DNA of 31,628 bases from a virus. Location: positions 1 to 31,628 of IMG/VR virus record IMGVR_UViG_3300033149_005344, one strand, 5' to 3'. Shown here piece by piece: positions 8,870 to 31,590 of the stretch. The first letter of the stretch is position 1. Each line of letters begins with the position of its first letter. Position numbers and translations under genes: made by a program. The notes under the pieces are model-generated. The model worked only from the letters and a program-made list of their open reading frames with translations. It was not told the DNA's origin and did no database searches.

Positions 8870-8871
8870 AC

Positions 8872-11642: not shown

Positions 11643-11654
11643 GGCCAGCCGTCC

Positions 11655-12733: not shown

Positions 12734-12736
12734 CCC

Positions 12737-13881: not shown

Positions 13882-13892
13882 GGAGAGTTGAA

Positions 13893-14652: not shown

Positions 14653-14680
14653 GAACGTAGACAACCGAACAGAACAGCAA

Positions 14681-14731
14681 GCCGGCCGTGTGGGGCCGAC
14701 GCGAACACCCCACGCGGCCGGCTTTTATTTT
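14681..14731 (+). terminator. Rho-independent terminator before tail module
   Basis: A 15-bp GC-rich stem (14681-14695 with 14708-14722, one T-G pair) is followed by TTTTATTTT at 14723-14731. This is a classic intrinsic terminator separating head and tail modules. It shares the core GGCCGTGTGGGGCC with the stem-loop at 7183. Confidence 0.85.
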
Positions 14732-14763
14732 GGCGCAGAACGGATAACCGAAGGGAGAACCCA

Positions 14764-15204: not shown

Positions 15205-15250
15205 CCCTCGCCACCCGCGCGAACGCTAACACACAGAAAGGGAGAACCCC

Positions 15251-15790: not shown

Positions 15791-15812
15791 CTGGAAAGGA
15801 GGCTGTGCCGCG

Positions 15813-16295
15813 ATGGGCCAGTTCACTGATACCGAGGGCCGCATTTGGACCCTCGCCGTCGACGTAAACATCGTGCGCCGCGTCCGGAACGCCTTGGGCG
15901 AGAACCTGCTCGACCTGGCAGGCGGCGAACTATGCAAGCGCGTCACCCGCGACCCCGTGCTGCTCGTCGATCTCATGTACGAGGTTGTCCGGCCCGAGGC
16001 CGAGAGTCAGGACGTTAGCCCCGAGGCCTTCGGCCGGGCCCTCACCGGCGACGTGATCGACGCCGCCACGACCGCCCTCTTGGAGAGCGTCGCGGATTTT
16101 TTCCCGAGCCGGAAGGCGACGGTTCTCCGGCGAATGATCGAGAAAGGGGCGGAGATCGACGCCAAGGTGGTGGCGAGGGCAGAGCGGGTCCTGGAGGACG
16201 GGACGCTCGACGCCGAGATCGAACGGTTGGCGAGCAAGCCTGGGAGACCATCCACCACCTCGCCGGCGCCGTCGGCCTCGACCCCGGCCCCCTGA
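15813..16295 (+). CDS. Tail assembly chaperone, short form (gpG-like)
   Basis: ATG 15813 follows AAAGGAGG (15795-15802). The 160-aa protein begins with a beta part (FTDTEGRIWTLAVDVNIVRRVRNALG) and continues helical (VLLVDLMYEVVRPEAESQDVSPEAFGRALTGDVIDAATTALLESVADFFP). This is the build of the N-terminal domain of siphovirus tail assembly chaperones, which coat the tape measure during tail assembly. It lies upstream of the tape measure gene. The last residues (PSTTSPAPSASTPAP) are low-complexity and likely come from reading past the frameshift point. Confidence 0.65.
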   Translation: MGQFTDTEGRIWTLAVDVNIVRRVRNALGENLLDLAGGELCKRVTRDPVLLVDLMYEVVRPEAESQDVSPEAFGRALTGDVIDAATTALLESVADFFPSRKATVLRRMIEKGAEIDAKVVARAERVLEDGTLDAEIERLASKPGRPSTTSPAPSASTPAP

Positions 16296-16534
16296 CCCTC
16301 CGCGACCTCGTCGCTATGGCCAAGGGCCGGGTCGAGACTTTCGACCGGCTGCAATGGGCAACCACCAGCGCCGTGCTGGCCATGATTGCAAACGTGAATC
16401 GAGACCCGAGGAAAACCGGCCCGTTCAGGGCCCGCGACTTCGACCCCTACGCCAAGCGATGCCGGAATGGAGTGCCAATCACGCCCGACAATATCGAGGA
16501 TCTCAAGGTTTTCGTTCCAGGAGAATCGCCATGA
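15813..16534 (+). CDS. Tail assembly chaperone, -1 frameshift long form (gpGT-like)
   Basis: In the -1 frame the coding pattern continues from about 16232 as EQAWETIHHLAGAVGLDPGPLTLRDLVAMAKGRVE..., with a clear helical chaperone domain, and stops at 16534. Joining the frames gives about 240 aa, equivalent to lambda gpG-T, which is made by ribosomal -1 slippage. The -1 frame is open from upstream of 16142 to 16534, so the shift falls within roughly 16142-16295. I see no textbook slippery heptamer there. An indel in the sequence is a fair alternative. The long-form stop overlaps the next ATG (ATGA). Confidence 0.6.
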
Positions 16535-17418
16535 CCCGCGCACTCGTTGCCGTTGCCTTGGCCGTCGCCGTGGTAGGCTGTGGCCAGCCCGACCTTACCC
16601 GCGACCGCCAGGCTGCCGAGGCCGCCCTTGCCGACATTCCCGACCGGGCCGACAAGGCCATCGGCCACATTGACAAAGCCAAGACGGGGGCCCGCGAGTC
16701 GGCCGCCGAGGTCCGCGACGCCGCCAGCGACGCCTCGACGATTCCCCAGGCCCGCCCCATCGCCGAGCGCCTCGCCACGAGCGCCGACCGCCTCGACCGC
16801 GAGGTCGTGCCCGAGTTGGACGAAGCCCTCGCCGACGTGGAAGCCGTAAAGACCGGGGCCGTCGACGCTGCCGGTCTCGCCGACGCCATCGCCAACCTTG
16901 AAGCCGAACGCGACCAATGGAAGGCCGAGGCAGCCGAGCAACGCGAGCGGGCCGACTCGGCCATCCGCAAGTGGCTACTGATCGTCGCCGCGGCCGGTTT
17001 CGCGGGCATCCTCGCCGGCGGAGCCCTTTTCGTATGGGTCGGCCGCAAGGTCGGCCTCGCCGTCGGTCTCGGAAGCCTCGCCCTCTTTGCCGCAGCCGTT
17101 GCCCTACACCGGTGGTACGAGTGGATTGCCTGGGGAGGCCTCGCCGTGATCCTGCTGGCCGTCGCGGGCCTTGCCTACGGCCTGTGGCGATACCGCGACG
17201 CTTTCCGGGCCGTTGTCGAGGGTGGCGAGCACTTCAAGGAATACCTTCAGGACGGCGTCACGTACACCCGCGAGCAAATCCGCGACATCTTCCGACGCAT
17301 GCAGCGCGCCACGCAGTACCACGCCCGGAGCGACGCCGAGAAGATGGTCCGCGACGTGAAGAAGGAGGTCAAGACGGGATGCCCCGCATTGTCCTCGTTG
17401 CCCTTGCCGCCCTCGTAG
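16531..17418 (+). CDS. Predicted lipoprotein with three membrane segments
   Basis: ATG 16531 follows CAGGAGA; the longer frame is a shadow. Residues 1-17 are a lipoprotein signal (ALVAVALAVAVVGC, Cys17). A long helical coiled-coil stretch (20-145, DRQAAEAALADIPDRADKAIGHIDKA...) follows. Three membrane segments lie near 148-170, 173-192 and 199-218, with a basic cytoplasmic tail. Between tail chaperone and tape measure this is unusual. It might serve lysis, membrane passage or superinfection exclusion. The sequence gives no family. Confidence 0.55.
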   Translation: MTRALVAVALAVAVVGCGQPDLTRDRQAAEAALADIPDRADKAIGHIDKAKTGARESAAEVRDAASDASTIPQARPIAERLATSADRLDREVVPELDEALADVEAVKTGAVDAAGLADAIANLEAERDQWKAEAAEQRERADSAIRKWLLIVAAAGFAGILAGGALFVWVGRKVGLAVGLGSLALFAAAVALHRWYEWIAWGGLAVILLAVAGLAYGLWRYRDAFRAVVEGGEHFKEYLQDGVTYTREQIRDIFRRMQRATQYHARSDAEKMVRDVKKEVKTGCPALSSLPLPPS

Positions 17419-17558
17419 TCGGCTGTGCCACGCCTGACCGGCCGGACCGGCGAGACATCCACTTCAAGTGGGACGGCGAGCGGTGGGAAAAGGTTATGCC
17501 ACCCGACGAACCCGAACTGGAAAGGATACCTCCATGGCGCGTCGCTATATTCTCTTGA
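17379..17558 (+). CDS. Small lipoprotein (possible o-spanin)
   Basis: A 59-aa protein starting at ATG 17379 after AAGGAGG, overlapping the end of the previous gene by 40 nt. It has a signal with lipobox LVVGC (Cys16), then a short proline- and charge-rich tail. Size and overlap resemble Rz1-like outer-membrane spanins, but no partner i-spanin is certain. It overlaps the next gene by 25 nt. Confidence 0.5.
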   Translation: MPRIVLVALAALVVGCATPDRPDRRDIHFKWDGERWEKVMPPDEPELERIPPWRVAIFS

Positions 17559-17791
17559 ACCCGGCCGACGGGCCCCTGTGGAGGCTCGCCCAGGCCGTCA
17601 CCTGCCAGGGTGCGACCGAGTACCTCGACTTTGCCGACCTCGCCCGCCGCCTTTGCGAGAAAGAGGCCGGCGAGGCCGAGGTCAACATCGCGCAGATGAG
17701 CGAGATCGTGGCCGACCTCCAGCGCCTGCTCGCTGACGATCCGCAGGCCGTGCTGGCCGTCCTCGCCGACAAGCTGCCGGCCACCCCGTAA
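17534..17791 (+). CDS. Small phage protein, unknown
   Basis: The 85-aa product begins MARRYILLNPADGPLWRLAQAVTCQGATEYLDFADLARRLCEKE and ends in a helical region (EIVADLQRLLADDPQAVLAVLADKL). The ribosome site is GGAAAGGA. No family recognised; its place before the gp10-like and tape measure genes suggests a tail role. Confidence 0.5.
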   Translation: MARRYILLNPADGPLWRLAQAVTCQGATEYLDFADLARRLCEKEAGEAEVNIAQMSEIVADLQRLLADDPQAVLAVLADKLPATP

Positions 17792-17804
17792 TGCGAGGCT
17801 ACCC

Positions 17805-18293
17805 ATGCTCCGCTTCAACGTCGATTACAGCATGTTCTTCGACAAGATGCCCGTCAAGCGGGCCATAGACAAGGCCTCGCGCGACCGCCTGATGAAGGCC
17901 GGGTCCTTCGTCCGCACGACGGCCAAGCGGAGCATCCGTAAGCGCAAGAGCATCAGCGAGCCGGGCCAGCAACCGCGAAGTCACCACGGCCTGCTGCGGA
18001 AATTGATCTTCTTCGGTCTCGAACCTTACGCCAAGACCGTCGTCGTCGGCCCGATGGACGCCAACATCGAGAATCCGCCTGTACCGAACCTGCTGGAGTT
18101 TGGCGGACGGGCCCGCCGGTACTTCCGGTGGCGTGGCTGGCCGCCCCGGCCCGAGCCCTGTAGCCGCAACGCCCCCGGCGCCATCGCGTACATGGCCCGA
18201 TACCGGCCGCGGCCGTTCATGGGCCCCGCCCTCGAGGCCGAGGCCCCGAACTTCCCCGACCTGTTCAAGAACAGCATCAGAAAGGTCGCCTGA
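17805..18293 (+). CDS. HK97 gp10-like tail component
   Basis: The 162-aa protein has the basic N-terminal half of gp10-type minor tail proteins (KRAIDKASRDRLMKAGSFVRTTAKRSIRKRKSISEPGQQPRSHHG). A beta section follows (KTVVVGPMDANIENPPVPNLLEFGG), then the C-terminal RPRPFMGPALEAEAPNFPDLFKNSI, where RPFMxPALE is a family hallmark. These proteins help join or terminate the tail. The stop overlaps the tape measure ATG (TGATG). Confidence 0.7.
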   Translation: MLRFNVDYSMFFDKMPVKRAIDKASRDRLMKAGSFVRTTAKRSIRKRKSISEPGQQPRSHHGLLRKLIFFGLEPYAKTVVVGPMDANIENPPVPNLLEFGGRARRYFRWRGWPPRPEPCSRNAPGAIAYMARYRPRPFMGPALEAEAPNFPDLFKNSIRKVA

Positions 18294-20530
18294 TGGGCCG
18301 CACCGGACAGATCAAGGCCGGAGAGGCGTTCGTCGAACTCAGCCTCCACGACCGCACACAACGGGCCCTCGGCCGGGTCCAGGCCCGCCTCAAGCGTTTC
18401 GGCCGGGACACCGCCGCCCTCGGCCGGTCCATGCTCACCGTCGGTGCCGCCGCCCTGGGGCCCCTCGCCGGAGCCCTCAAGACGTTCTCAAGCCTCGGCG
18501 ACGCCACCGCCAAGATGGCCCGCCGGACCGGCCTGAGCGTCGAGGCTGTCCAGAGCCTCGGTTTCGCCGCCGAGCGGTCCGGTTCCAGTACCGAAGCCCT
18601 CGAGAAGGGCGTCCGACGGATGCAGCGGACCGTGTGGGATGCCACGAGAGGCCTCAGCACGGCAAACGATGCCCTGGACGAACTCGGCCTTACCGCCGAT
18701 GACCTGGCAGGCAAGAGCCCCGAGGAACAGTTCAAGATCCTCGCCGACGCCCTCCACGGCGTCGACGGGGCCAGCCGCCGCGCCGCCATCGCCCAGCAGA
18801 TCTTCGGCCGGTCCGGTACCGAACTGCTACCCATGTTCGAGAAAGGCCGGGCCGGGCTCGAGGCCCTGCAAGACCGTTTCCACAGCCTCGGCGTCACCCT
18901 CAGCAGCGAGGAAACGCAGGCCGCCGAGCGGTTCACCGACCAGCTGACCAACCTTTGGACCGGCCTCAAGTACGGCGTCGCCCTGATCGGCAGCCGCCTA
19001 GAACCCGCCATCCGCGACCTGCTCGGCACCGCCCAGGACACCATCCGCGAGTGGGCCGGCTGGATCAAGAACAACCGCGGCCTCATCACCTCCTACGCCC
19101 GCCTCGCCCTCGAGGTCGGCAAGTGGGTGGCCCTGATCGGCGGCGGCCTGCTCGTCGTGGGGAAATTCGCCGGGGCCATCGGCAGCCTGATCGGCGTCGT
19201 CAAGGGGCTGTCGGCCGCGACCGCGGCCCTCATCGCCAACCCCGTAGCCCTCGCCTTCGTCGGGGCCGCCGCCGTGATCGGCGGCGTTGTCTATGCCATG
19301 GACCGCCTCACCACCCACTACGCCGAACTGCGCCACGAGGCAGAGCAAGCCCTCGGCACGCAACGCCGCCAGAACGCCGCTGACCTTGAGCGGATCGAAC
19401 GCCTCCAGGCCCTCGCCGACAAGGAAAGCCTCACAAACCGCGAGCGGGAAAAGGCACAGGACCTCATCGACACCCTCAACAACCACCTCGGCGACTACGG
19501 CGCCACGGTCGACGAGACTACCGGCAAGGTCCACGGGCTCGCCGAGGCAACCGACGGGTGGCGGAAGACCATGCAGCAGGTCACTATCGCCAAGGCCCAG
19601 GCCGAGGTCATGGAGTTGCAGCACAACCTGGACGAACTACGGACCGAATTCTACAGCCGGACGCAAAGCCCCCTCCGCGTCTGGCGAGAGATGTTCGGTG
19701 CCGACGCACTCGGCGAACTTGACGAGCGGATCGACGTGGCACGGGCCAAGTTGGAGGCCGCCCGCAAGCACCTTCAGGCCTTGGAGGAAGGCCCGGTCAC
19801 GCGCCAAGAACTGACGGGCCAAGACGAGGCCGCCGACACGGGCCCGGACCTCGGGCCCGCCGAGGACGCCGCCCGCAACCTCGCCGACCTCGACCGAACC
19901 CTGACGACCCGCCTGCACCGCCTCCGCCTTGAGATGATCGAGGACGAGCACGCTCGACGCATCGCCCTCATCAATCACCGCTACGACGTGGAGCGGCAAC
20001 GCCTGAAAGAGCAGGGGGCCACAGCCGAGCAACTCGCCACCCTTCAGGCTGCCCGCCAAGCAGAACTGGCCAAGGCCCGCCAGGACGCCGAACGCAAGCG
20101 AGCCGAGGAAAACGACCGCCGCGAGCGGGAGTGGAAGCAACAGCGGCTCGCCGAACTCGATTACGAACGCGACCTCCGCCAGCAACTCGCCCGCGAGGAA
20201 ATCCGGGCCACGAAGGAAGGCAAGGAGGAACGCTTCGCCCTACTCGAACTGCAACGTAAGGCGGCTATCCGCGAGGCCGCCGAGTATGGCCAGGATGCCA
20301 TCGACCTTGTCAACCGCCTCTATGACGCGAAACGGCGAGCGATTGAGGGCGCCGATGAGGCCGACCGCGTCGCCCGGAGCACTCGCGGCACGTTCGGCAG
20401 TTTCAGGGCCGGGGCGAGCCTGGCCGTGGCATCGGTGGCCGAGCGAACGGCCAAGGCCGTCGAGGAGACGGCGCGGAACACCAAGCGGCTGGTCGAAGAG
20501 GCCAGGCGTGGCGGGCCTGTCTTCGGGTGA
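18293..20530 (+). CDS. Tape measure protein
   Basis: The 745-aa protein sets tail length. It has a helical N-terminus (RVQARLKRFGRDTAALGRSMLTVGAAALGPLAGALKTFSSLGDATAKMARRTGLSVEAVQSLGFAAERSGSS), the conserved opening of these proteins. Next comes a hydrophobic domain at about 275-340 (VALIGGGLLVVGKFAGAIGSLIGVV, LIANPVALAFVGAAAVIGGVVYAMD), expected to insert into the host membrane. The C-terminal part is long coiled coil (KQQRLAELDYERDLRQQLAREEIRATKEGKEER). At about 1.5 angstrom per residue this implies a tail near 110 nm. It ends before the tail-tip genes. Confidence 0.9.
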   Translation: MGRTGQIKAGEAFVELSLHDRTQRALGRVQARLKRFGRDTAALGRSMLTVGAAALGPLAGALKTFSSLGDATAKMARRTGLSVEAVQSLGFAAERSGSSTEALEKGVRRMQRTVWDATRGLSTANDALDELGLTADDLAGKSPEEQFKILADALHGVDGASRRAAIAQQIFGRSGTELLPMFEKGRAGLEALQDRFHSLGVTLSSEETQAAERFTDQLTNLWTGLKYGVALIGSRLEPAIRDLLGTAQDTIREWAGWIKNNRGLITSYARLALEVGKWVALIGGGLLVVGKFAGAIGSLIGVVKGLSAATAALIANPVALAFVGAAAVIGGVVYAMDRLTTHYAELRHEAEQALGTQRRQNAADLERIERLQALADKESLTNREREKAQDLIDTLNNHLGDYGATVDETTGKVHGLAEATDGWRKTMQQVTIAKAQAEVMELQHNLDELRTEFYSRTQSPLRVWREMFGADALGELDERIDVARAKLEAARKHLQALEEGPVTRQELTGQDEAADTGPDLGPAEDAARNLADLDRTLTTRLHRLRLEMIEDEHARRIALINHRYDVERQRLKEQGATAEQLATLQAARQAELAKARQDAERKRAEENDRREREWKQQRLAELDYERDLRQQLAREEIRATKEGKEERFALLELQRKAAIREAAEYGQDAIDLVNRLYDAKRRAIEGADEADRVARSTRGTFGSFRAGASLAVASVAERTAKAVEETARNTKRLVEEARRGGPVFG

Positions 20531-20541
20531 GGGAGAAAAGC

Positions 20542-21432
20542 ATGGCCATCACGGTCGCCGAGCGCCACGAAACCGATACCGGCAGCGACGGCCAGCGGAA
20601 GGGGACCGAGAAGCGGTATATCATCAAGGGGACGGCGTCCCTGGCGGACGCCCTGGCTGAACTCGCGTCCGTCTCCCCGACGACGTTCAACGATCTGGTC
20701 CGCCAGACCTGGAACGTCGAACCCGTATTCGTCGACGTCGACAACCCGGACCAGTGCATCTGGTACGGCACCGTCTACTATGAGCAGACGAAGACCAGTA
20801 CCCTCAAACTGGCCAAGGGCGATCAGATCATCCGGACGCGTTCCGGCGGCGGCACGGAGCACATCATGGTCCCCATCATTCGGCGCGGGGCCTACGCACC
20901 GTCCGGCGAAACCGCCCCTGCCGCCCACGGCATCGGCGACGATGGCCGCGGCAACGTCGAAGGCGTGGACATCCACGGATGGCGGTACGAGTTCACCGTG
21001 ACGCGCATTTATCATAACCCTACCGGCACCGGCGAGGATGATGCGCCCAGCGAGGGCGATATCGCCTTCGAGCTCAACCACACCAACGGCGCCAAGTTCA
21101 CGGTCGTCGACACGCACAGCGGGCGGACCATCACCGCCCAGGTCGACGAGTGTATCTTCCTCGGCCACGAATGCGGCGGTACGGAGCGAGCCGACGGCGG
21201 GTTCCAGATTGACTACCATTTCGCCATCCGACCGCACCGGACGGAATTCGAGATTCCGAACACGGGGATCACGGTGCCTGAGGTCCATGGCTGGGATTAT
21301 CTGTGGACCCGGTACGAGCAGGCGGAGGACGATACGGCGAAGCGGGCGTATGCCAAGGCCCTGGCCGCCTACGTCGACCAGGTCTACTACCAGGGCGACT
21401 TCTCCGGCCTCAAACTCAAGAGCAGCCTGTAA
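20542..21432 (+). CDS. Tail-tip/baseplate protein candidate
   Basis: ATG 20542 follows GGGAGA and is preferred over GTG 20527. The 296-aa product has an N-terminal helical-plus-strand part and a middle beta domain (IHGWRYEFTVTRIYHNP, KFTVVDTHSGRTITAQVDECIFLGHECGG). It ends with PEVHGWDYLWTRYEQAEDDTAKRAYAKALAAYVDQVYYQGDFSGLKL. It directly follows the tape measure, the slot of distal tail or hub proteins. No family is recognised. Confidence 0.5.
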   Translation: MAITVAERHETDTGSDGQRKGTEKRYIIKGTASLADALAELASVSPTTFNDLVRQTWNVEPVFVDVDNPDQCIWYGTVYYEQTKTSTLKLAKGDQIIRTRSGGGTEHIMVPIIRRGAYAPSGETAPAAHGIGDDGRGNVEGVDIHGWRYEFTVTRIYHNPTGTGEDDAPSEGDIAFELNHTNGAKFTVVDTHSGRTITAQVDECIFLGHECGGTERADGGFQIDYHFAIRPHRTEFEIPNTGITVPEVHGWDYLWTRYEQAEDDTAKRAYAKALAAYVDQVYYQGDFSGLKLKSSL

Positions 21433-21436
21433 CGCC

Positions 21437-23074
21437 ATGGGCACCTTCGACCACGTCCATCCCGGTCAACCGATCTCCGGCATCCCCGCCGCGGCCTACA
21501 ACGCCGCGATGGATGCAGCCAGAGCATTCCAGCAGAGCGGAACCCTCTTCGACCGCAAGGCGGCACTACAGGCGGTCGGCCCCGTGGTCTGGGTGCGCAA
21601 CAATACCGGCTCGGCCCTCGCCCGGTTTGACGTGACCGCATTGGGCCTGCCGATCATCGTGCCAGCGGACAACGAGAGCGAGTTCGAGCAGCAGGTCATG
21701 TTCGAGGGCGGCACACCCAGCGTCCCCGCCGATCTCGGGGAGTGGGCCATCACGCTAGAGCCGATCCCGGCCGGCAAGATCGGCCGTGCAATGGTCTCCG
21801 GCCTTTGCCAGGTCCGCCTCTACGTCCCGGAGGGCCAAGAGGAGTACGAGTTCGCCGACGTCGCCGGCGGTGCCACGGGTTACCTGCTGCTGCAGCGCGA
21901 GGGACCCGCCCAGATCCTCTGGCGGGAAAGCGGCACGAGCACGAGCACGGAGGACCTGAAGTGGGCCGTGGTGCGCCTCGGCCTGCCGGCCCGCCGCGGC
22001 TTCTGGGTCCGGCTCACGGCCGAGTCGGGCGACCTCGGCGGCGACTATTCCTGGATCATGCTCCAGGACGACGGCGAGACGCCCGTTGACCCCGAGATCA
22101 GCGGCGAGAACACCGCCCACGAGGTCTCCGACCGCGAGGGCCTCAGAACCGACGCCGACGAGGGCGAGGAGGCCACGTCGGGCACCGTCGTCTGGGCCTG
22201 GCCCGCCGGCTTCGACGACGAGGGGGCGCCGCTGCTGCGGTTCGAGCACCGGCCCGCCGAGGTTTCCGTCAAGAACACGACGGCGAATGATCTGAGCAAG
22301 TTCGACGTCCTCGGCGTCAGCGGCGTCGAGATCACGCCAGCGACCAGCCTCTCAAAGTTCAAGCGGCGGGTGGCGCTTACAGGTACGACGCCGGCCGTGC
22401 CGGACCATCGCGGGAAGTTCGTGGTCCTCTTGGACGACCTGCCTGCCGGCGCCGTCGGCCGGGCCATCGCCTCGGGCCTCTGCCACGTCCAGATTAGCGT
22501 CTCGGCCGGCGAAGAGGCCATCGAGCGGGCCGACGTGGACGACGGCCAAGTCGGTCACCTCGTGCCTCGCCCCGATGGCAGTGCCCAGATTCTCTGGCGC
22601 GAGACCGGAACCGGCACGCGGTGGGCCATCGTCCGGCTCGGCCCGGACCGGCGGCGCGGCTTCTGGGCCCGCCTGACCGCCGAATCCAGCAACCTCGGCG
22701 ACTACTCCTGGATCATGCTGGAGGATGACGCCTCGACGGAGGTCACGCCGAACGTGACGGGTTCCTGGGACGGCACCGACAAGGCCTCGGAGGTCAACGG
22801 CCGCGAGAAGATCGGCACCGACGCGAGCGAGGCGTCGGACCCGAACGCGCCGGCTCGGACGGTCTGGATGTGGCCGGTGTCGGACGGATCATATCGGTTC
22901 ATCTATGAGCGGGCGGACGAAACGCACGTGTACTTCGACAGCACCGATTACTTTGACAGGTACCAGTTCAGCGGCATCCGCTGTGACCGGGACGGCCGGG
23001 TCCTCGCCGCCTACGGTCATGCCGATGGATGGAAGTGGTACGACATTCACGGAAATCTCTTATCAAATGAGTAG
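21437..23074 (+). CDS. Tail/fibre protein with two copies of a 200-residue domain
   Basis: ATG 21437 lies 4 nt after the previous stop. The N-terminus (FDHVHPGQPISGIPAAAYNAAMDAARAFQQ) looks like a virion-docking helix. Two related domains follow: copy 1 from about residue 50 and copy 2 from about residue 275. Matching segments are IPAGKIGRAMVSGLCQVRLYV with LPAGAVGRAIASGLCHVQISV; GPAQILWRESG with GSAQILWRETG; RRGFWVRLTAESGDLGGDYSWIMLQDD with RRGFWARLTAESSNLGDYSWIMLEDD. The C-terminus is a short beta tip. The duplication has diverged. It is probably an exposed tail structure. Confidence 0.6.
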   Translation: MGTFDHVHPGQPISGIPAAAYNAAMDAARAFQQSGTLFDRKAALQAVGPVVWVRNNTGSALARFDVTALGLPIIVPADNESEFEQQVMFEGGTPSVPADLGEWAITLEPIPAGKIGRAMVSGLCQVRLYVPEGQEEYEFADVAGGATGYLLLQREGPAQILWRESGTSTSTEDLKWAVVRLGLPARRGFWVRLTAESGDLGGDYSWIMLQDDGETPVDPEISGENTAHEVSDREGLRTDADEGEEATSGTVVWAWPAGFDDEGAPLLRFEHRPAEVSVKNTTANDLSKFDVLGVSGVEITPATSLSKFKRRVALTGTTPAVPDHRGKFVVLLDDLPAGAVGRAIASGLCHVQISVSAGEEAIERADVDDGQVGHLVPRPDGSAQILWRETGTGTRWAIVRLGPDRRRGFWARLTAESSNLGDYSWIMLEDDASTEVTPNVTGSWDGTDKASEVNGREKIGTDASEASDPNAPARTVWMWPVSDGSYRFIYERADETHVYFDSTDYFDRYQFSGIRCDRDGRVLAAYGHADGWKWYDIHGNLLSNE

Positions 23075-23678
23075 TGATCTCGCCGTCCACGTCATCAGCC
23101 GCACGGGCCACGGCCCGAACCGCTGGCTGCGAGCCTGGCTGGAGCACCGCCACCTCGCGCCCGAGATCGTCACGTCGCGCTACGAGGTGGCCGCCGGTCG
23201 CAACCGATCGGTTGAGCGGTTCCTGACGAAGGCCGTGCCAGACGGGGCGGCGTTCCTGCTGCAACTCGACGAGGACATGTTCCCCCGGCCCGAAACCGAC
23301 GCGATCCTCGACCTCGCGAGCGGCGACCTCGTGTACTGCGGCTATCCGGCTCGCGATGGGCACAAGGGCGTTTACGGCGACGGCATGATCGCGCCCGGCT
23401 GTCTGCGGATGAGCGCCCGCCTGCTTCAGCAGATCGACCCGCCGTGGTTCTGCCCGCGGTGGAACCACAATCGGACCGAGCAGATCGCATGCGAGGCGAC
23501 GCACCTCATGCGGGCCGCCCAGGACCGCGGCTACCAGTGCCGCATCGTCGGCCTCATCGACCACCTCGTGGTGGCTGTTCTCAGAGCCAACCCGGCCCGG
23601 CCGACCGAGCCGGATCTGGCAATGCCGGCTGACCTGTCCTCTAACCGCGATCCTCTCGCTTCGACAACTTTCCCTTGA
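23067..23678 (+). CDS. Glycosyltransferase-like protein, last tail-module gene
   Basis: The 203-aa product starts with DLAVHVISRTGHGPNRWLRAWLEHR and has AAGRNRSVERFL, then AAFLLQLDEDMFPRPETDAILDLASGDLVYCGYP, an acidic DED motif like the metal site of GT-A glycosyltransferases. EATHLMRAAQDRGYQCRIVGLIDH near the end fits the same fold. It overlaps the previous gene by 8 nt and is the last gene before the CRISPR locus. The distant relative at 14153 shares this plan. Virion, DNA or cell-surface sugar transfer are all possible. Confidence 0.5.
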   Translation: MSSDLAVHVISRTGHGPNRWLRAWLEHRHLAPEIVTSRYEVAAGRNRSVERFLTKAVPDGAAFLLQLDEDMFPRPETDAILDLASGDLVYCGYPARDGHKGVYGDGMIAPGCLRMSARLLQQIDPPWFCPRWNHNRTEQIACEATHLMRAAQDRGYQCRIVGLIDHLVVAVLRANPARPTEPDLAMPADLSSNRDPLASTTFP

Positions 23679-23711: not shown

Positions 23712-23821
23712 AAAAAAAAGGCACCCCTTCTGGGAGGTGCCGGGTGCGCCCCGTAGGGCGTTGCCCGCGGAACGAAAGTTCCTTACTGTGACTTGAAGAA
23801 CAATCGCCGCTCAGGTACACT
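23712..23821 (-). ncRNA. tracrRNA
   Basis: Reading leftward, the RNA begins with the anti-repeat (23821-23786). Its first 18 nt match the array repeat exactly. It pairs with the crRNA repeat as 18 bp, an internal loop (5 by 4), then 7 bp, a U-G and 5 bp. After TAAGG come hairpin GGAAC-TTTC-GTTCC, the GGGCAACGCCC and CGCCC-TAC-GGGGCG stems and a terminal hairpin (23741-23720). Eight Ts follow (23719-23712), a clear intrinsic terminator. The layout, including AAGG after the duplex and GCAACGC in the middle, resembles type II-C tracrRNAs such as that of Neisseria. It guides crRNA processing and Cas9 loading. The promoter is at 23828-23856. Confidence 0.9.
23793..23821 (+). promoter_or_regulatory. 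Candidate cas9 promoter inside the anti-repeat
   Basis: On the plus strand TTGAAG (23793-23798), 17 nt, then TACACT (23816-23821) gives a moderate sigma-70-like promoter (4/6 and 4/6). Its start would fall near 23828, 39 nt before the cas9 ATG. The same two boxes, 16 nt apart, occur in every CRISPR repeat on the minus strand. The promoter lies within the tracrRNA gene and faces the tracrRNA promoter. Predicted only. Confidence 0.45.
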
Positions 23822-23827
23822 AGCGTC

Positions 23828-23856
23828 TTGATAGTCTTCCGGAACCGCCCTGTCAA
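23828..23856 (-). promoter_or_regulatory. tracrRNA promoter
   Basis: On the minus strand a perfect -35 TTGACA (23856-23851) is followed after 17 nt by TATCAA (23833-23828). The expected start lies about 7 nt on, at the first base of the anti-repeat (near 23821). It overlaps the region between the cas9 promoter-like box and the cas9 ribosome site. Confidence 0.7.
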
Positions 23857-23866
23857 GGAAAATCTC

Positions 23867-26800
23867 ATGTCATCTCAAGAAAACTTCGACTACATTCTCG
23901 GTCTTGACATTGGGGCCAACTCCGTGGGCTGGGCCGTGATCGGCGTCGAACAGGGCAAGCCAGCCCGCCTCGTCCGGACGGGCGTCCGGGTCTTCGACGC
24001 CGGCGTGGAGGGGAACTTCGAGTCGGGCCATGCCGAGTCTAGATCTACCCCTCGCCGCCAGGCTCGTCTTATAAGGCGCCAGCATAATCGCCGGGCTCGC
24101 CGGCAACGCAGGTTGCTCCATCAGCTTCAGGAGGCCGGTCTGCTGCCTGAAGGCGAAGCCCGCGATGTCCTTCCCGAACTCGACCGCCAGCTTTACTCGA
24201 AGCATATCGGCAATCTTCAGGACGGTTCAACGGAGAAGCGTCGCCGGGCTCACATCCTGCCTTACCACCTGCGGGCCCGGTCATTGGACGAGAAACTCAA
24301 ACCTCACGAACTTGGCCGGGCCATCTACCACCTTGCCCAGCGGCGGGGATTCGCAAGCAACCGGCGGCGCCCACCCTCCGACGATGAAGACGAAGGTCAG
24401 GTCCGCGACGCCATTAGCAAACTCGGCCAAGACATGGAGCAGGCCGGCGCCCGCACCCTGGGAGAGTACCTCGCCGGACTCGATCCGCGCGAGGAACGCA
24501 TCCGCCGCCGTTGGACCTCCCGCCAGATGCACCTGGATGAGTTCGAGGCGATCTGGAAGGCGCAGGCACCGCATTACCCGGACCTGCTCACGCCTGAACT
24601 CAAGGCCAAGCTGTACGACACCATCTTCTTCCAGCGGTCGCTTAAGAGCGCTAAGGGCTTGGTCGGCCCGTGCGAGCTCGAGCCCAACTCACGCCGGGCT
24701 CCCATGGCCCTTCCTCTTGCCCAGCGTTTTCGGCTTGTCCAACAGGTCACCAACACCCGCATCATCGAGCCGGATGGCAATCACAGATACCTGACCTCCG
24801 AAGAGCGCGAAGCACTGCTTGACTGCCTTGAGCGCGAGGGTGACCTGCGATTCAAAAATGCCAAGAAACTCCTTGCGCTCAGCGCCCGTTGCAAGTTCGC
24901 GTTCGAAGAGGGGGGCGAGAAACGTTTTGTAGGCAACCGCACCAATGCCCGGATGGTCGAGATCTTCGGCGATCGGTGGTGGGTCTTTGGCGACGAGGAC
25001 CGGGAGCAGATCGTCCAGGATCTGCGCAGCATCCAGAAACGCGATGTTCTGGCCCGACGCGGCCGGGAGGCGTGGAACCTCGATCCGCAGGCAGCCGGGC
25101 GATTCGCCGACATCGAACTTGAACCCGGCTACGCCAACCTCTCGCGCCGGGCGATGGGCAAACTGTTGCCGCTCCTCGAGGACGGCGTCCCATACGCAAC
25201 GGCCATAAAGGAGGTCTACGGTGAGTTTCACCAGCACAGCGACTTCCTCGAGTTGCTGCCGGCGGTCGACCAGGCGCTCCCACACTTGAGGAACCCGGCC
25301 GTTCACCGAGCCCTGACCGAACTCCGCAAGGTCGTCAATGCCGTCATCCGCAAGCACGGCAAGCCTGAGATCATACGCGTGGAACTGGCCCGCGAGATGC
25401 GCCGCTCAAAGAAGCAGCGACAGGAATCCTCCCGGAGGAACCGGCGGCGGGAACGGCAGCGCCAGGACGCTGCTAAGAGGCTGGCGAAAGAGGCTGGCAT
25501 TCAGAATCCCCGCCGGTCTGATATCGAGAAGGTGCTCCTGGGGGAGGAGTGCGGTTGGCAGTGTCCGTACACGGGTCGGCCGATTTCGATGGCGGGGCTG
25601 TTCGGCGACAGCCCGGAGTTCGACATCGAGCACATCGTCCCCTTCGGCCGCTGCCTTGACAACTCCTTCTTGAACAAAACCCTCTGCGAGGTGGCCGAGA
25701 ATCGCAACCGCAAGCGCAACCGCACACCTGCTGAGGCCTACGCGGGCGATGACGAACGGTGGGAGGCCATCCTCGAACGGGTTAAGCATTTCAAAGGTGA
25801 CAAGCGCCTCGTACAGGAAAAACTCCGCCGGTTCCGACTGACGGCTGAGGATCTCCAGGACCAGGACGAGTTCGTTTCTCAGCAGATGAACGACACGCGC
25901 TATGCCTCCCGCCAGGCCCTTCAGTACCTCGGCTTCCTGTACGGCGGCCTGTGGGATGCCAAGGGCAAACGGCGCGTTCAGGCTGTCCGCGGTATCGTCA
26001 CCGGCTTCCTGCGAGGCGTCTGGCACCTGAACCACGTGCTGGGTGAGGACGGCAAGAAGAGCCGTAGCGACCATCGCCACCATGCCGTCGATGCAGTGGT
26101 CGTGGCGTTGACAAGCCCTGGCACCATCAAGATGCTTGCCGACGCCGCTCAGCGCCCGCGCGAGGGCGGGGGATATCTCTTCGACCGCGTTGAGGAACTC
26201 TGGCCCAATTTCTTTGACGATGTGTGCGGCGCTATCGAGGCTGTCAACGTCTCTCACCGGCCGAAGCGCCAGGTCGGCGGCCCATTGCACGCTGAGACCC
26301 TCTACAGCCCGGAAAAAACCGATGAGAAAGGGAAGCGATGGGTCCATTTCCGCAAGCCGCTTGAGGATCTTGCCGCTACAGAAGTCGATGCCATCGTTGA
26401 CGACACGGTCCGCGATCTGGTCAAGGCCAAGCTAAGTGAAGTCGGTGGACCGCCTGAGCAGGCCTTCGGCGATCCCAAGAACCATCCGTGCCTGACGTCA
26501 CGTGACGGACGTTCCGTCCCTGTGCACCGTGTTCGCATCAAGAAGGCCGCTGCCACCACTACAGTGGGCGAGGGGCCGCGCGCCCGTCACGTGATGCCAA
26601 GCGGCAACCATCATGTGGAAATCTTCGAGACCTCGAATCGCAAGGGCGGGAAGAAGTGGGTCGGCCGCATGACGACGCGGCTGCAGGCCTTGGAGAGGCT
26701 CACTAATCACCAGCCCGTGGTGAATAGTTCCGACCCTGCAGGTCCATTCGTGTTCTCGCTCGCCTCGGGAGACACGGTTCAACTCGACACCGAAGACGGC

Positions 26801-27010
26801 GGCCGTGGCCTTTTCTGTATTCGCAGTGTGAGTCAGCAGAAGAACCGTGCCATCCGCGTCGAGTATGTTGATGTAAAGGATTCGAGGAAAAAGGCCGATA
26901 TCAGGAAAGCGGGCGCTTGGCAATCGTCTGCCATCGACACGCTGCGCAAACTCAACGCCCACAAGGTTACGGTCACTCCCCTCGGCGAGATACGCCGGGC
27001 CAATGACTGA
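23867..27010 (+). CDS. cas9: Cas9 endonuclease, type II-C
   Basis: The 1047-aa RNA-guided DNA nuclease is in the compact II-C size range. ATG 23867 is chosen because AAGGA lies 7 nt upstream; the TTG at 23828 lies in the tracrRNA -10. RuvC-I: LGLDIGANSVGWAVI with D14. The arginine-rich bridge helix is about 60-85. RuvC-II: IIRVELARE with E506. HNH: CPYTGR, then DIEHIVPFGRCLDNSFLNKTL with H589 and N612 (ENRNRK). RuvC-III: SDHRHHAVDAVVVAL with H739 and D742. All catalytic residues are present, so it should be active. Residues from about 800 are the PAM-interacting part. It overlaps cas1 by 8 nt. Third-position bases are more mixed than in the phage genes, hinting at a separate origin. Confidence 0.97.
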   Translation: MSSQENFDYILGLDIGANSVGWAVIGVEQGKPARLVRTGVRVFDAGVEGNFESGHAESRSTPRRQARLIRRQHNRRARRQRRLLHQLQEAGLLPEGEARDVLPELDRQLYSKHIGNLQDGSTEKRRRAHILPYHLRARSLDEKLKPHELGRAIYHLAQRRGFASNRRRPPSDDEDEGQVRDAISKLGQDMEQAGARTLGEYLAGLDPREERIRRRWTSRQMHLDEFEAIWKAQAPHYPDLLTPELKAKLYDTIFFQRSLKSAKGLVGPCELEPNSRRAPMALPLAQRFRLVQQVTNTRIIEPDGNHRYLTSEEREALLDCLEREGDLRFKNAKKLLALSARCKFAFEEGGEKRFVGNRTNARMVEIFGDRWWVFGDEDREQIVQDLRSIQKRDVLARRGREAWNLDPQAAGRFADIELEPGYANLSRRAMGKLLPLLEDGVPYATAIKEVYGEFHQHSDFLELLPAVDQALPHLRNPAVHRALTELRKVVNAVIRKHGKPEIIRVELAREMRRSKKQRQESSRRNRRRERQRQDAAKRLAKEAGIQNPRRSDIEKVLLGEECGWQCPYTGRPISMAGLFGDSPEFDIEHIVPFGRCLDNSFLNKTLCEVAENRNRKRNRTPAEAYAGDDERWEAILERVKHFKGDKRLVQEKLRRFRLTAEDLQDQDEFVSQQMNDTRYASRQALQYLGFLYGGLWDAKGKRRVQAVRGIVTGFLRGVWHLNHVLGEDGKKSRSDHRHHAVDAVVVALTSPGTIKMLADAAQRPREGGGYLFDRVEELWPNFFDDVCGAIEAVNVSHRPKRQVGGPLHAETLYSPEKTDEKGKRWVHFRKPLEDLAATEVDAIVDDTVRDLVKAKLSEVGGPPEQAFGDPKNHPCLTSRDGRSVPVHRVRIKKAAATTTVGEGPRARHVMPSGNHHVEIFETSNRKGGKKWVGRMTTRLQALERLTNHQPVVNSSDPAGPFVFSLASGDTVQLDTEDGGRGLFCIRSVSQQKNRAIRVEYVDVKDSRKKADIRKAGAWQSSAIDTLRKLNAHKVTVTPLGEIRRAND

Positions 27011-27893
27011 GCGGATTCTGGATGTCGCGCAGGACTCAGCCCGCCTTCGGGTGGACTGCCGCCGTCTCGTCATCGAGCAGAACGACAAAGCGGTAGCGAA
27101 GGTTCCCCTCGGCGAAGTGGCCGCCCTGGTTGTCTCGCACCCTAAAGTCACCTATACCCAAGCGGTCCTCTCAGGACTTGTCGAACACGGCGGGGCACTG
27201 GTGGTATGCGACCGCCGACACCTGCCGGTCGGCATGCTCCTGCCCATCGAGGCTCACTACGTCCAGGCGGAGCGGTTCGCCCTGCAGGCCCGTGCCGCGA
27301 AGCCTCGTTGCAAGCGCCTCTGGCAGCAGATCGTGAACGCCAAGGTTGCTGCCCAAGGCCGCCTGCTGGCCCGTCTGCACGGTGATGATCGGGGTCTCCT
27401 GGCCCTGGCGCGGACCGTTCGCTCGGGCGATCCGACCAACGTGGAGGCCCAAGCTTCGCGGCGGTACTGGCCTGCCCTCTTCAATGACCCGGAGTTCCGG
27501 CGGGACCCGACCCGCGACGACCAGAACCGCTTCCTGAACTACGGGTACGCTGTCCTGCGGGCCGTTGTGGCCCGTGCTATCTGCGCCGTCGGGCTGCACC
27601 CAAGCCTTGGCATCCATCACCACAACAGGTATAATGCTTTTTGTCTGGCCGATGATGTGATGGAGCCGTTCCGGCCGCTTGTGGATGAGCGCGTATGCGA
27701 AATCGTTACCGTACAAGGTCCCCAGGCCCCACTCGATCCAACTACCAAGCAGACGCTGCTCGGCATCTGCACGGCGCGCCTTGCGCTGGAAGGGGAGTCG
27801 CGCAGCCTGTTCGACACCTTGGCCCGAACAGCCTCCTCCCTGGTAGCCGCTCTGCGGGATGGTTCGCAGAAACTAGCCCTGCCGGAGGTTTGA
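27003..27893 (+). CDS. cas1: Cas1 integrase, type II
   Basis: The 296-aa protein inserts new spacers together with Cas2. The beta N-terminal domain ([31 protein letters not shown]) leads to the helical catalytic part. The metal-binding residues are E148 ([13 protein letters not shown]), a histidine in [15 protein letters not shown] (205-207) and the acidic set in [16 protein letters not shown] (D218, E221). The length is usual for type II Cas1. ATG 27003 overlaps the end of cas9, showing a coupled operon. All key residues are present, so adaptation should be possible. Confidence 0.95.
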
Positions 27894-27894
27894 C

Positions 27895-28239
27895 GTGTCG
27901 CCCCGGCGCAACTGCCCCTCGGAGTACAGGGCCTTGTGGCTTTTCGCGATGTTCGACTTGCCGGTGGACACCAAGAAAGCCCGGAGGGCATACGCGAGGT
28001 TCCGAAAGGCCCTGCTGGCTGAAGGGTTCCAGATGCTCCAGTTCTCGGTCTATGCACGCTATTGTGCTTCAGAAGAACGAAGCCGGACGTTTCGGCGCCG
28101 CATCCGGGCATGGCTGCCCCCACACGGTCAAGTTCGGCTTCTCGCCATCACCGACAGGCAATTCGGTAAGATGGTTATCTTCGAAGGGAAAAAACGCCGA
28201 AAGGCTGAGTCTGTTCCACAGCAGTTGTCGCTTTTCTGA
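27895..28239 (+). CDS. cas2: Cas2
   Basis: GTG 27895 lies one base after the cas1 stop. The 114-aa protein has the ferredoxin-like start [29 protein letters not shown] with the conserved D21, then [13 protein letters not shown] and [17 protein letters not shown]. It ends with QQLSLF, a tail common in type II-C Cas2. It forms the Cas1-Cas2 complex that measures and integrates spacers. No csn2 or cas4 follows, which places the locus in subtype II-C. Confidence 0.93.
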
Positions 28240-28256
28240 CCGATCATTTCGCCGCA

Positions 28257-28287
28257 ACCCCCTGCAACGCAACGCGTTACAGGGGGT
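28257..28287. repeat. Long imperfect palindrome between cas2 and the array
   Basis: ACCCCCTG (28257-28264) pairs with CAGGGGGT (28280-28287) and AACGC (28266-28270) with GCGTT (28274-28278), around the loop AAC, with one C-A mismatch. There is no T-run on either side. It lies 3 nt before the first repeat. It could end convergent transcripts from cas2 and the array or mark the spacer-insertion end. Confidence 0.5.
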
Positions 28288-28325
28288 CGAGTGTACCTGA
28301 GCGGCGACTCCCTTCAAGCCACAGC

Positions 28326-28350
28326 GCGGCGACTCCCTTCAAGCCACAGC
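28326..28350. repeat. 25-nt partial repeat duplicated after repeat 1
   Basis: The last 25 nt of the repeat (GCGGCGACTCC...CCACAGC) occur twice in direct tandem at 28301-28325 and 28326-28350. The second copy is followed by a normal 30-nt spacer. It could come from slippage or recombination inside the terminal repeat, or a faulty integration event at this end. Confidence 0.85.
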
Positions 28351-30221
28351 GCTGGGTGGAAGAGGGCGAGCCGTTTCGGGAGTGTACCTGAGCGGCGACT
28401 CCCTTCAAGCCACAGCTATGCTATCATGTTGGTAGCGGGGCTAATCAGTGTACCTGAGCGGCGACTCCCTTCAAGCCACAGCTGATATCAACGCGCCCCA
28501 ATTCATCCAGGGAGTGTACCTGAGCGGCGACTCCCTTCAAGCCACAGCTCCGGGGCGCGGACCGGTCGGCCCGGAACTAGTGTACCTGAGCGGCGACTCC
28601 CTTCAAGCCACAGCCTGGTCCGCCGTCGCTGCTAGCATCCGGTCAGTGTACCTGAGCGGCGACTCCCTTCAAGCCACAGCGCATGCCGTTGTGGCGGTTG
28701 CCGCCCGCTGAGTGTACCTGAGCGGCGACTCCCTTCAAGCCACAGCCCGACGGTGATCTGCTCCCCGTCCAAAAAAGTGTACCTGAGCGGCGACTCCCTT
28801 CAAGCCACAGCAGACGCCCGCCGACAGACAGGCGGCCGCGAGTGTACCTGAGCGGCGACTCCCTTCAAGCCACAGCACATAAGCCGCCGCCCCTCGGTCC
28901 ACATCCAGTGTACCTGAGCGGCGACTCCCTTCAAGCCACAGCGCCACCGACGGGACCGAGTGCCGAGATTGCAGTGTACCTGAGCGGCGACTCCCTTCAA
29001 GCCACAGCCAAGATAAGCGTCTATGGCATTAGCACCGAGTGTACCTGAGCGGCGACTCCCTTCAAGCCACAGCGCAACGGCTGGCGGAGCGGCATCGCAG
29101 GCGAGTGTACCTGAGCGGCGACTCCCTTCAAGCCACAGCCTCAAGCGACTGCATACAGCCTCACACGCGAGTGTACCTGAGCGGCGACTCCCTTCAAGCC
29201 ACAGCGATGCTTGGCCGGCATCCCTGCTCTACTGAGTGTACCTGAGCGGCGACTCCCTTCAAGCCACAGCCTCAATTGCCGGGACTTGCCGCCAAGAGTT
29301 AGTGTACCTGAGCGGCGACTCCCTTCAAGCCACAGCCGAGCACGAGCGCTTGATGCGTGAGGCGCAAGTGTACCTGAGCGGCGACTCCCTTCAAGCCACA
29401 GCAGTCTTGGCACTATGGACGCGAGTTTGAACAGTGTACCTGAGCGGCGACTCCCTTCAAGCCACAGCGTAATTGTGGCCCCTACGTTGCTGCATTCTAG
29501 TGTACCTGAGCGGCGACTCCCTTCAAGCCACAGCAATCAGTTGCGCGCCACACCACACGAGGAAGTGTACCTGAGCGGCGACTCCCTTCAAGCCACAGCT
29601 CGCTTTGACCGATGCCGAGATCCCACTGGAGTGTACCTGAGCGGCGACTCCCTTCAAGCCACAGCGCGACCTGGTGATCGTCGATCCGGATCAGCAGTGT
29701 ACCTGAGCGGCGACTCCCTTCAAGCCACAGCGCGAGGGAGCCGAGGCAACCTGGATGCGACAGTGTACCTGAGCGGCGACTCCCTTCAAGCCACAGCTGA
29801 GCGATACGGGGGCCGGCGAGCCTCCTAGTGTACCTGAGCGGCGACTCCCTTCAAGCCACAGCCGCCCGTCCATCCGCTCCGCCGCCGATCTAAGTGTACC
29901 TGAGCGGCGACTCCCTTCAAGCCACAGCACCTGCGCCCGGGGCCGTACCGCATCGGCCAGTGTACCTGAGCGGCGACTCCCTTCAAGCCACAGCCAACGT
30001 GCGAGTGTATGTATCTGGCCGAGAAGTGTACCTGAGCGGCGACTCCCTTCAAGCCACAGCGTCCGGGCGCGAGGCTACCTGCTCTCCCAAGTGTACCTGA
30101 GCGGCGACTCCCTTCAAGCCACAGCACGTGTTGACACTGGCGCCCGATCCCCCCTAGTGTACCTGAGCGGCGACTCCCTTCAAGCCACAGCCGCTCGCCG
30201 CGGAGATCCGAACGGTTCAAT

Positions 30222-30250
30222 AGTGTACCTGAGCGGCGACTCCCTTCAAG
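30222..30250. repeat. Truncated terminal repeat beside the integrase
   Basis: The first 29 nt match the repeat, then the sequence switches at once to GTTTGTTCGTCATCC; the final CCACAGC is missing. The integrase stop codon begins 10 nt further on, at 30260. On the crRNA strand this is the upstream end, so the missing bases are the 5' end of that repeat, including part of the tracrRNA pairing region. Confidence 0.9.
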
Positions 30251-30259
30251 GTTTGTTCG

Positions 30260-31414
30260 TCATCCGATCTCTTTGGCGACAATGCTGGCCAATTCCATGT
30301 CCAGTTCCCCGTAGTGCTCGGTGATCGCGACGGACGAATGCCCCAGCGCCGCCCGCGCCGCTTCCAACCCTCCCGCTCGGGCCGCACGCATCTTGAACGC
30401 GTGCCGAAGTTGATGCGGCGTCCAGCGGTCGATGCCGGTCTTTTCGCAGGCTCTGTAGATCGCTCGCCGGTAGGAGTCCACGGTGTATCGCTGCCCCGGC
30501 CGGCGCTTCGGCCGACATGCGGGCCGCTTGTGGTTTCCGACCCCACAGCGGGCCTGACGTTCCTCGATGAGACTGGCTCGACGCTTCTCCTCGGCCTCTC
30601 GCGGTTGAAAGAGGTACGCCTCGTGGTCCGGCCGTAGCCACGGGGCGATGGCATCCTGGGCCCGAGGCCCCAGTGCAATGCACCGCTGGTGGCCGAGGTA
30701 GTCCGTCTTGTGCGACTCGGGCCGGTAGAGCCACACGGACCCCGACCGGTCGATGTCGCACGTCCGCATCTGGACGACCTCGCCGGGGCGCATGCCCGTA
30801 TGCCATTGCAGCCGGATCATCGCCCACACCTGAGCCGACACGTGCGGACGGACCGCCTCGACATCGGCCCACGCGACCGGTCGCCGCTTTGGCAATTCCT
30901 TGCCCCCTTGGCCTTGCCGGAGCCCTTCGACTACCTGGAGGCGGTGCCAGATTTCCGGCGAGATCAGTTCGTTCTCCGAACCCCAGCGAAATACGCGCTT
31001 GATTTGACCTGTCCGACGGTTGACCGTCCGCCGGGCCAGCCCCGCCTCGACCATGTGCCGACGGACCGCCTTCAGTGCGAGCGGGCCGAAGTCGTCGACG
31101 CGAGCGTCAACGTACAGGGCCAGGAGATAGTGGCACGCCGACCGGACGCTGAGAAACTCGTCGCTGCCGTTGTAGTATTCCCAGGCGTGCTCAAGGTAGG
31201 CCGACACCAGTTCAGCGATGGTATCGACGCGGCCACCGGGCCCGCTGGCGGACGATCCGCTCGCGAGCCATTCAGAAATGAGCCGGTGGTAGGCTGCCTC
31301 GGCATCCGGTGTACCGTACTTGCCGAGGTAGTGATCCTTGCCGTCGAGCCGGACAACCGCCCGCCCCGAGGCCTTGTGACGCTGCAACTTCGGAACCCGT
31401 CGACGCCGCGACAT
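30260..31414 (-). CDS. int: Phage tyrosine integrase
   Basis: The 384-aa recombinase starts at ATG 31414, behind GGAAGGAGAG; the TTG further upstream is rejected. The N-terminal arm-binding part is about 1-60, the core-binding part about 65-160, and the catalytic part starts near 180. Catalytic residues: R209 in HTGMRPGEVVQM, K236 in RPESHKTDYLG, H334 and R337 in TPHQLRHAF, H359 in ALGHSS, and nucleophile Y368 in ITEHYGELD. It inserts and excises the prophage at a tRNA site. The gene sits just downstream of tRNA-Val. The MRTCDIDRSGSVWLYRPESHKT style is common in planctomycete integrases as I recall. Its 3' end faces the CRISPR array 9 nt away. Confidence 0.93.
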   Translation of the reverse strand: MSRRRRVPKLQRHKASGRAVVRLDGKDHYLGKYGTPDAEAAYHRLISEWLASGSSASGPGGRVDTIAELVSAYLEHAWEYYNGSDEFLSVRSACHYLLALYVDARVDDFGPLALKAVRRHMVEAGLARRTVNRRTGQIKRVFRWGSENELISPEIWHRLQVVEGLRQGQGGKELPKRRPVAWADVEAVRPHVSAQVWAMIRLQWHTGMRPGEVVQMRTCDIDRSGSVWLYRPESHKTDYLGHQRCIALGPRAQDAIAPWLRPDHEAYLFQPREAEEKRRASLIEERQARCGVGNHKRPACRPKRRPGQRYTVDSYRRAIYRACEKTGIDRWTPHQLRHAFKMRAARAGGLEAARAALGHSSVAITEHYGELDMELASIVAKEIG

Positions 31415-31434
31415 GGCACTCTCCTTCCGCAATT

Positions 31435-31447
31435 CCGTAAATTACGG
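31435..31447. promoter_or_regulatory. Inverted repeat upstream of the integrase gene
   Basis: CCGTAA (31435-31440) and TTACGG (31442-31447) surround a single A, about 20 nt upstream of the integrase start. This is the usual place and form of a dimer-binding operator. No regulator gene is visible in the window. Confidence 0.4.
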
Positions 31448-31514
31448 AGGAATCCGTCGCGGCCCGCCGTCGGGCCGGTGCCACGTAAGTAGCGGCGTCC
31501 TCACGAGTTATCAA

Positions 31515-31560
31515 TGGTGGGCGCTACAGGACTTGAACCTGTGACCTCGTGGGTGTGATC
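31515..31560 (-). other. Probable attachment site core (3' half of tRNA-Val)
   Basis: Integrases of this kind usually recombine within the 3' part of a tRNA gene, and the phage sequence restores the gene end. The integrase start is about 100 nt away with the tRNA 3' end pointing to it. The exact core cannot be fixed without the left junction, which lies outside the window. Confidence 0.5.
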
Positions 31561-31590
31561 CACGCGCTCTGCCAACTGAGCTAAGCGCCC
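31515..31590 (-). tRNA. tRNA-Val (anticodon CAC)
   Basis: The 76-nt gene on the minus strand has acceptor GGGCGCT/AGCGCCC, D stem GCTC/GAGC, and anticodon stem CGTGG/CCACG with loop ATCACAC (anticodon CAC). The T arm is ACAGG-TTCAAGT-CCTGT. It ends A-CCA (31518-31515), with CCA encoded. All stems pair fully. Its 3' end faces the integrase. Confidence 0.95.

Follow-up and report, generated by a model that had tools for sequence, protein, structure and literature searches.

Phages with genomes below 200 kb are reported to carry only rarely clustered regularly interspaced short palindromic repeats (CRISPR) (PMC11656645). The lytic Vibrio phage ICP1 possesses a class 1 system of type I-F which is aimed at a satellite (PMC11656645). 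Cas9-based type II systems are encoded by huge phages (>200 kb), with spacers directed against structural genes of other phages; almost all of the phage systems reported in that study lack Cas1 and Cas2, and their arrays are short, with a median of six repeats (PMC7162821). A type II-C Cas9, unaccompanied by cas1 and cas2, is located on CampyICE1, an integrative and conjugative element (ICE), and is thought to act against competitors (PMC8743540). Type II-C loci are moreover present on chromosomes of Planctomycetota. The present study concerns a CRISPR-Cas9 locus in the IMG/VR record IMGVR_UViG_3300033149_005344, a siphovirus-like phage sequence of 31,628 bases (GC content 66 %) which was analysed over its whole length and is referred to as the window. 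In the reading favoured here, to which a probability of about 0.83 is assigned, the record derives from a siphovirus-like temperate phage of Planctomycetota whose cargo, inserted between tail module and integrase, is a complete type II-C system capable of adaptation.

Architecture of the CRISPR-Cas9 locus

A preliminary description of the window had named a trans-activating CRISPR RNA (tracrRNA), a cas9 gene with all catalytic residues, cas1, cas2 and an array of 29 spacers between the last tail-module gene and an integrase next to a tRNA-Val gene; all of these parts were confirmed in their places. The locus is complete and unbroken, and its layout runs from tail genes (+) via tracrRNA (-), cas9-cas1-cas2 (+) and the array to the integrase (-) and tRNA-Val:

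23067..23678, plus strand: last tail-module gene, an open reading frame (ORF) preceding the CRISPR locus
23712..23822, minus strand: tracrRNA with anti-repeat (~23786-23822), hairpins and an intrinsic terminator ending in U8
23867..27010, plus strand: cas9, type II-C, 1047 aa (PADLOC, 1e-99; Pfam RuvC_III/HNH_4)
27003..27893, plus strand: cas1, type II (PADLOC Cas1_II, 1e-98), with E148, H206/H207 and E221 present
27895..28239, plus strand: cas2, type II (PADLOC Cas2_II, 2.5e-42; Pfam)
28240..28289: leader with stem-loop CCCCCTGcaACGC..GCGTTaCAGGGGG, nearly identical in the related locus G441 (see below)
28290..30258, minus strand: CRISPR array, 30 repeats of 36 nt and 29 spacers; crRNA (CRISPR RNA) sense GCTGTGGCTTGAAGGGAGTCGCCGCTCAGGTACACT
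30260..31414, minus strand: tyrosine integrase (Pfam PF00589, PHROG_1), 5' end towards the tRNA
31515..31590, minus strand: tRNA-Val(CAC), putative attachment site (ARAGORN, Rfam), 3' end at 31515

With model matches of this strength for Cas1 and Cas9, the cas gene calls are not due to chance. Alignment to the Cas9 in PDB 9ar4 and a check of the individual residues revealed intact nuclease sites (RuvC D14, E506 and H739/D742; HNH H589). The ATG start of cas9 at 23867, which has an AAGGA resembling a Shine-Dalgarno sequence, is more likely than the TTG listed at 23828. The three cas genes lie back to back, 50 bp ahead of the array, and neither csn2 nor cas4 nor any further ORF was detected in the cas operon (ORFs, PADLOC, Pfam). 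Cas1 also fits the PADLOC model 'subtype II/NMENI' (6e-78). Judged from sequence, the possession of three cas genes only, the tracrRNA and the grouping of Cas9 and Cas1 with the NMENI class assign the locus to type II-C.

The anti-repeat of the tracrRNA (window 23786-23826) matches the array repeats at 84-87 %; the predicted fold has a free energy of -44.1 kcal/mol (z -2.6), and the tracrRNA is conserved in G441. The array comprises 29 perfect 36-nt repeats and one degenerate trailer repeat at 30222-30258. Since the degenerate repeat faces the integrase and the conserved stem-loop leader adjoins cas2, the leader is placed on the cas2 side. To pair with the tracrRNA, crRNAs must come from the minus strand, the cas genes being encoded on the plus strand. 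In type II-C systems of Neisseria, a promoter resides inside each repeat; a sigma-70 scan of the present array yielded no 9-of-12 match, and repeat promoters looked weak by eye. The spacer unit at the leader end (28326-28381) harbours an additional repeat copy truncated to 25 nt, which may stem from a recent acquisition gone wrong.

From knowledge of the family, Cas9, tracrRNA and the 29 minus-strand crRNAs would form surveillance complexes in the lysogen which cut incoming DNA, and Cas1-Cas2 would add spacers at the cas2-side leader. The targets would mainly be competing phages and other mobile elements, providing the lysogen with superinfection immunity (exclusion).

Integrase, tRNA gene and extent of the element

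The integrase starts ~100 nt from the 3' end of tRNA-Val(CAC) and reads towards the array, the end of which is separated from the integrase stop codon by 1 nt. Relatives of this integrase (36-49 % identity) are located ~100-210 nt downstream of tRNA 3' ends at six genome loci of Planctomycetota and in several viral records, next to genes for tRNA-Gly, -Pro, -Met, -Arg, -Val and -Lys. The G472 prophage, which resides in tRNA-Val(CAC) and has an integrase 42 % identical to that of the window, displays a 50-bp duplication of the attachment site: the 3' end of the tRNA recurs without mismatch ~33 kb away, on the far side of the phage genes. The 3' end of tRNA-Val is not repeated in the window, either near 23.68 kb, in agreement with the preliminary description, or anywhere else, the longest match being an inverted one of 12 nt within the terminase gene (5208). 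The element therefore runs past the left end of the window; a second attachment site most likely lies beyond that end, so that the element would include the phage genes together with the CRISPR locus.

This bears on the possibility that integrase and CRISPR locus form a separate island, inserted into tRNA-Val next to an older prophage that ends at ~23.68 kb. The array abuts the integrase, the left end of the phage and any second integrase are beyond view, and the GC content at third codon positions (GC3) is lower in the CRISPR locus: 0.70-0.74 in the cas genes versus 0.84-0.89 in the phage genes of the window, with a similar gap in G441. This difference points to a foreign origin of the cas genes relative to the phage genes. 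Against a separate island speak the lack of a second tRNA-end copy in the window, the distance of only 34 bp between the last tail-module gene and the tracrRNA terminator, and the use of the same integrase family by other phages of the group. Together with the recurrence of the flanks in other phages described below, these findings render a separate island very improbable.

Related phages with and without the locus

Single-sequence searches with Cas9 and with the integrase yielded no matches, nor did exact repeat searches of viral and genome collections; the two most informative relatives, L200 and G441, were found by alignment-based searches. L200/G471 possesses homologues of the terminase (46 % identity), head protease (44 %), integrase (48 %) and also tail proteins of the window phage. 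Its tail genes (+) and integrase (-) converge over 150 bp without CRISPR and thereby represent the empty slot in a related phage. The occurrence of this convergent pair, with an integrase of the same family, in a phage without CRISPR speaks against a separate island. A tyrosine integrase downstream of the tail genes and on the opposite strand was also observed in other phages of the group (G033, G009 and G025).

The phage G441 (= L187) stems from another metagenome and encodes Cas9, Cas1 and Cas2 with 76, 84 and 89 % identity, respectively, to those of the window. Homologous distal tail genes (53 and 51 % identity) are followed by the same tracrRNA, by cas9, cas1, cas2 and the leader, and by an array comprising no fewer than 57 repeats and 56 spacers; the region from tail to CRISPR shares about 75 % DNA identity with the window. 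The distal tail genes of both are close relatives (53-55 %), compared to ~35 % or less for most other phages except L264 and L265. The tail-CRISPR adjacency thus recurs, which again argues against a separate island. Downstream of the G441 array follow a PLD-SNF2 helicase and an Eco57I-like methylase (the latter read by eye from the translation), and in the related phage L265 an Eco57I-type restriction-modification gene is located directly after the tail module (13229-16511). Together with the CRISPR loci of the window and G441, these genes make the post-tail slot look like a site for defence cargo. In G441 (~9750-9860), the tracrRNA terminator coincides in part with a 35-bp direct repeat, CCTTGTCCTCATCCCAAAAAGAAGGCACCCCTTCA, which could be a scar left when the locus entered the slot.

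The same repeat is also compatible with a chromosomal CRISPR locus next to which related prophages integrated, e.g., at the tracrRNA terminator, in the window and in G441. Such an arrangement would agree with the helicase and methylase behind the G441 array, which are typical of defence islands, and with the occurrence of Cas9 relatives (up to 52 % identity) in 45 of 392 sampled Planctomycetota genomes. However, the CRISPR locus of the window is followed by an integrase of the phage group with its tRNA, the host CRISPR loci examined have no tail gene, terminase or integrase of this kind beside the tracrRNA, and the distal tail genes of window and G441 are close relatives of each other; a chromosomal locus is accordingly regarded as very improbable.

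Chimeric assembly of phage and bacterial DNA would have to be considered because the phage/CRISPR and CRISPR/integrase junctions are each spanned by one assembly only. For the phage part, an artefact of a single assembly does not apply, since a second record (G001/L090, IMG/VR 3300033150_000799) is 99.9 % identical across window positions 1-19293. The order from phage tail to CRISPR is repeated at about the DNA identity given above in the independent sample of G441, a natural-looking degenerate trailer repeat adjoins the integrase stop, and the flanks are those expected from L200, the phage with the empty slot, leaving a chimera with next to no credibility. On the evidence of G441 and L200, both the chimera and the host locus were rejected. 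Carriage of the CRISPR locus by the phage, as put forward in the preliminary description, is supported by the empty slot of L200, the gene order of G441 and the location of the integrase family at tRNA 3' ends.

Spacers and putative targets

The G441 array yielded weak matches to phages (best E 0.002, a Mycobacterium phage). Its spacer 38 agrees at 25 of 30 positions with the portal gene of the window phage (8485..8514, +). Each of the five mismatches is synonymous and affects codon position 3 (chance of that phase ~0.002), and the last eight bases, nearest to the presumed side of the protospacer-adjacent motif (PAM), are perfectly matched, the site continuing with GGGTGCCG. In other phages, the same RQAW..YE motif is among the weaker matches; the portal gene of G441 itself is not matched by spacer 38. 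This one match is suggestive of a CRISPR system aimed at a competing phage. A match of G441 spacer 47 to L184, with mismatches spread over all three codon positions, was attributed to chance.

None of the 29 spacers of the window matches the sequenced part of the phage outside the array; self-cutting would be avoided in this way and, presumably, by an array without PAM. The competition against phages or mobile elements proposed in the preliminary description received one suggestive spacer match, from G441. A role against competing phages is drawn from this match and from the phage-phage targeting reported for other arrays (PMC7162821). Alternatively, a phage-borne system could serve counter-defence, cutting host islands or phage satellites rather than excluding phages; ICP1 provides a precedent (PMC11656645), and most spacers are without an identified target. 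The codon-consistent match concerns a phage portal gene and not a host island, and other phage arrays are reported to target phages (PMC7162821), so that counter-defence is considered unlikely, though less so than the alternatives concerning carriage.

Several observations weigh against cargo carried by a temperate phage and directed at competitors. The 29 spacers of the window have no significant match in phages, plasmids and 4.5 Mb of related loci, the hits to phages and plasmids not exceeding chance level, and the comparison with viral sequences recommended in the preliminary description came out negative. The single G441 spacer match is imperfect, and matches with five mismatches but without codon logic also arise by chance in GC-rich spacers. 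An integrase of the window's family was not seen in G441, and the genes following its array are of a defence kind also common in host islands. The left attachment site lies outside the record, a direct-repeat pair of attachment sites being seen only in the relative G472, and G001 ends at window position 19293, leaving the phage/CRISPR junction in one assembly only.

Origin of the locus and other phage-borne type II loci

The Cas1 proteins of the window and G441 group together with full support (100/100) in the Cas1 tree, nested among those of Planctomycetota. The chromosomal loci of Planctomycetota examined share the gene order of the window and have repeats similar to its own, and a search for closer host Cas9 proteins in genomes of one order retrieved none above 52 %. 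The locus of the window probably descends from a chromosomal type II-C system of Planctomycetota.

Type II cas9-cas1-array loci were also found just before the portal and capsid genes in L345, between terminase and portal in L353, and adjoining the terminase in L355. The Cas1 proteins of L345 and of the L352/L353/L355 group fall outside the window/G441 clade, and the different clades imply at least three captures by phages (window and G441; L345; L352/L353/L355). That ordinary-sized temperate phages repeatedly captured complete, learning type II-C systems and run them against related phages, with at least three independent captures in IMG/VR and two kinds of insertion slot, is judged to have even odds. 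If true, adaptive immunity of phage against phage would be normal lysogenic cargo outside jumbo phages. Some of these phage type II loci may already be listed in Al-Shayeb 2022. Type II Cas9, Cas1 and arrays were likewise present in the IMG/VR records L350, L356, L358, L359, L360 and L361, the flanks of which may be of phage or host.

Phage gene content and host

The window contains a tailed-phage gene set including terminase, portal, capsid and tail (PHROG, Pfam); the ORF containing the gene at 23067-23678 is without Pfam or PHROG match. The remaining features are as follows:

left two thirds of the window: RusA-type resolvase, ParB-like proteins and Mom-like DNA modification protein (PHROG and Pfam)
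4496..23074, plus strand: packaging/head/tail module (PHROG and Pfam)
4496-6574, plus strand: terminase large subunit, gpA-type
7439-8869, plus strand: portal, lambda-family
ends 10176, plus strand: head protease, ClpP-type
10222-11151, plus strand: major capsid protein
14764-15204, plus strand: major tail protein
18293-20530, plus strand: tape measure protein
20542-23074, plus strand: distal tail genes

Relatives of the terminase in genomes belong nearly all to named Planctomycetota lineages, for which reason Planctomycetota are assigned as host phylum. The Mom-like DNA modification gene (2580-3398) adjoins two ParB-like genes, and the phage likely holds an anti-restriction function alongside adaptive immunity. 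ARAGORN called a tRNA-Met at 7013-7089, between terminase and portal, which Rfam does not confirm. The record G001 reaches ~985 bases beyond the left end of the window; at ~561, the window lacks 28 bp that G001 has, and a small early gene is thereby read in a different frame.

Comparison with known systems

The window offers a concrete case of a host CRISPR system apparently captured into a phage cargo slot of which the empty state is known, and phage-phage adaptive immunity becomes testable in the sense of whether a prophage records its rivals.

The chromosomal type II-C systems of Planctomycetota share with it the order cas9-cas1-cas2-array and 36-nt repeats of the same type, with proteins up to 52 % (Cas9), 65 % (Cas1) and 71 % (Cas2) identical. 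The chromosomal loci examined have no such integrase, terminase, head or tail genes nearby, apart from one ParB-like match, whereas the locus of the window lies in a phage and forms its own well-supported clade with G441. L345, L352/L353 and L355 likewise combine cas9, cas1 and an array, with portal, capsid or terminase genes of a phage next to them, but differ in their Cas1 clades and in insertion near terminase and portal/capsid.

As in ICP1 (PMC11656645), the window and G441 possess a complete system on a phage, adaptation genes and array included; that of the window is, however, a class 2 system of type II-C in a temperate phage, and no satellite match was found for its spacers, unlike in ICP1. 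With CampyICE1 (PMC8743540) it has in common a type II-C Cas9 on an integrated mobile element, the carrier being a phage with the full set of genes instead of an ICE with Cas9 only. The huge-phage systems (PMC7162821) resemble it in the phage-encoded type II effector and, with regard to the suggestive G441 match, in spacers against structural genes of other phages; in contrast to these, the window possesses cas1, cas2 and 30 repeats in an ordinary-sized temperate phage. Phage CRISPR and phage Cas9 were already known; the new aspect is that an ordinary temperate phage has a complete type II-C system, long array included, and that a second phage shows the same.

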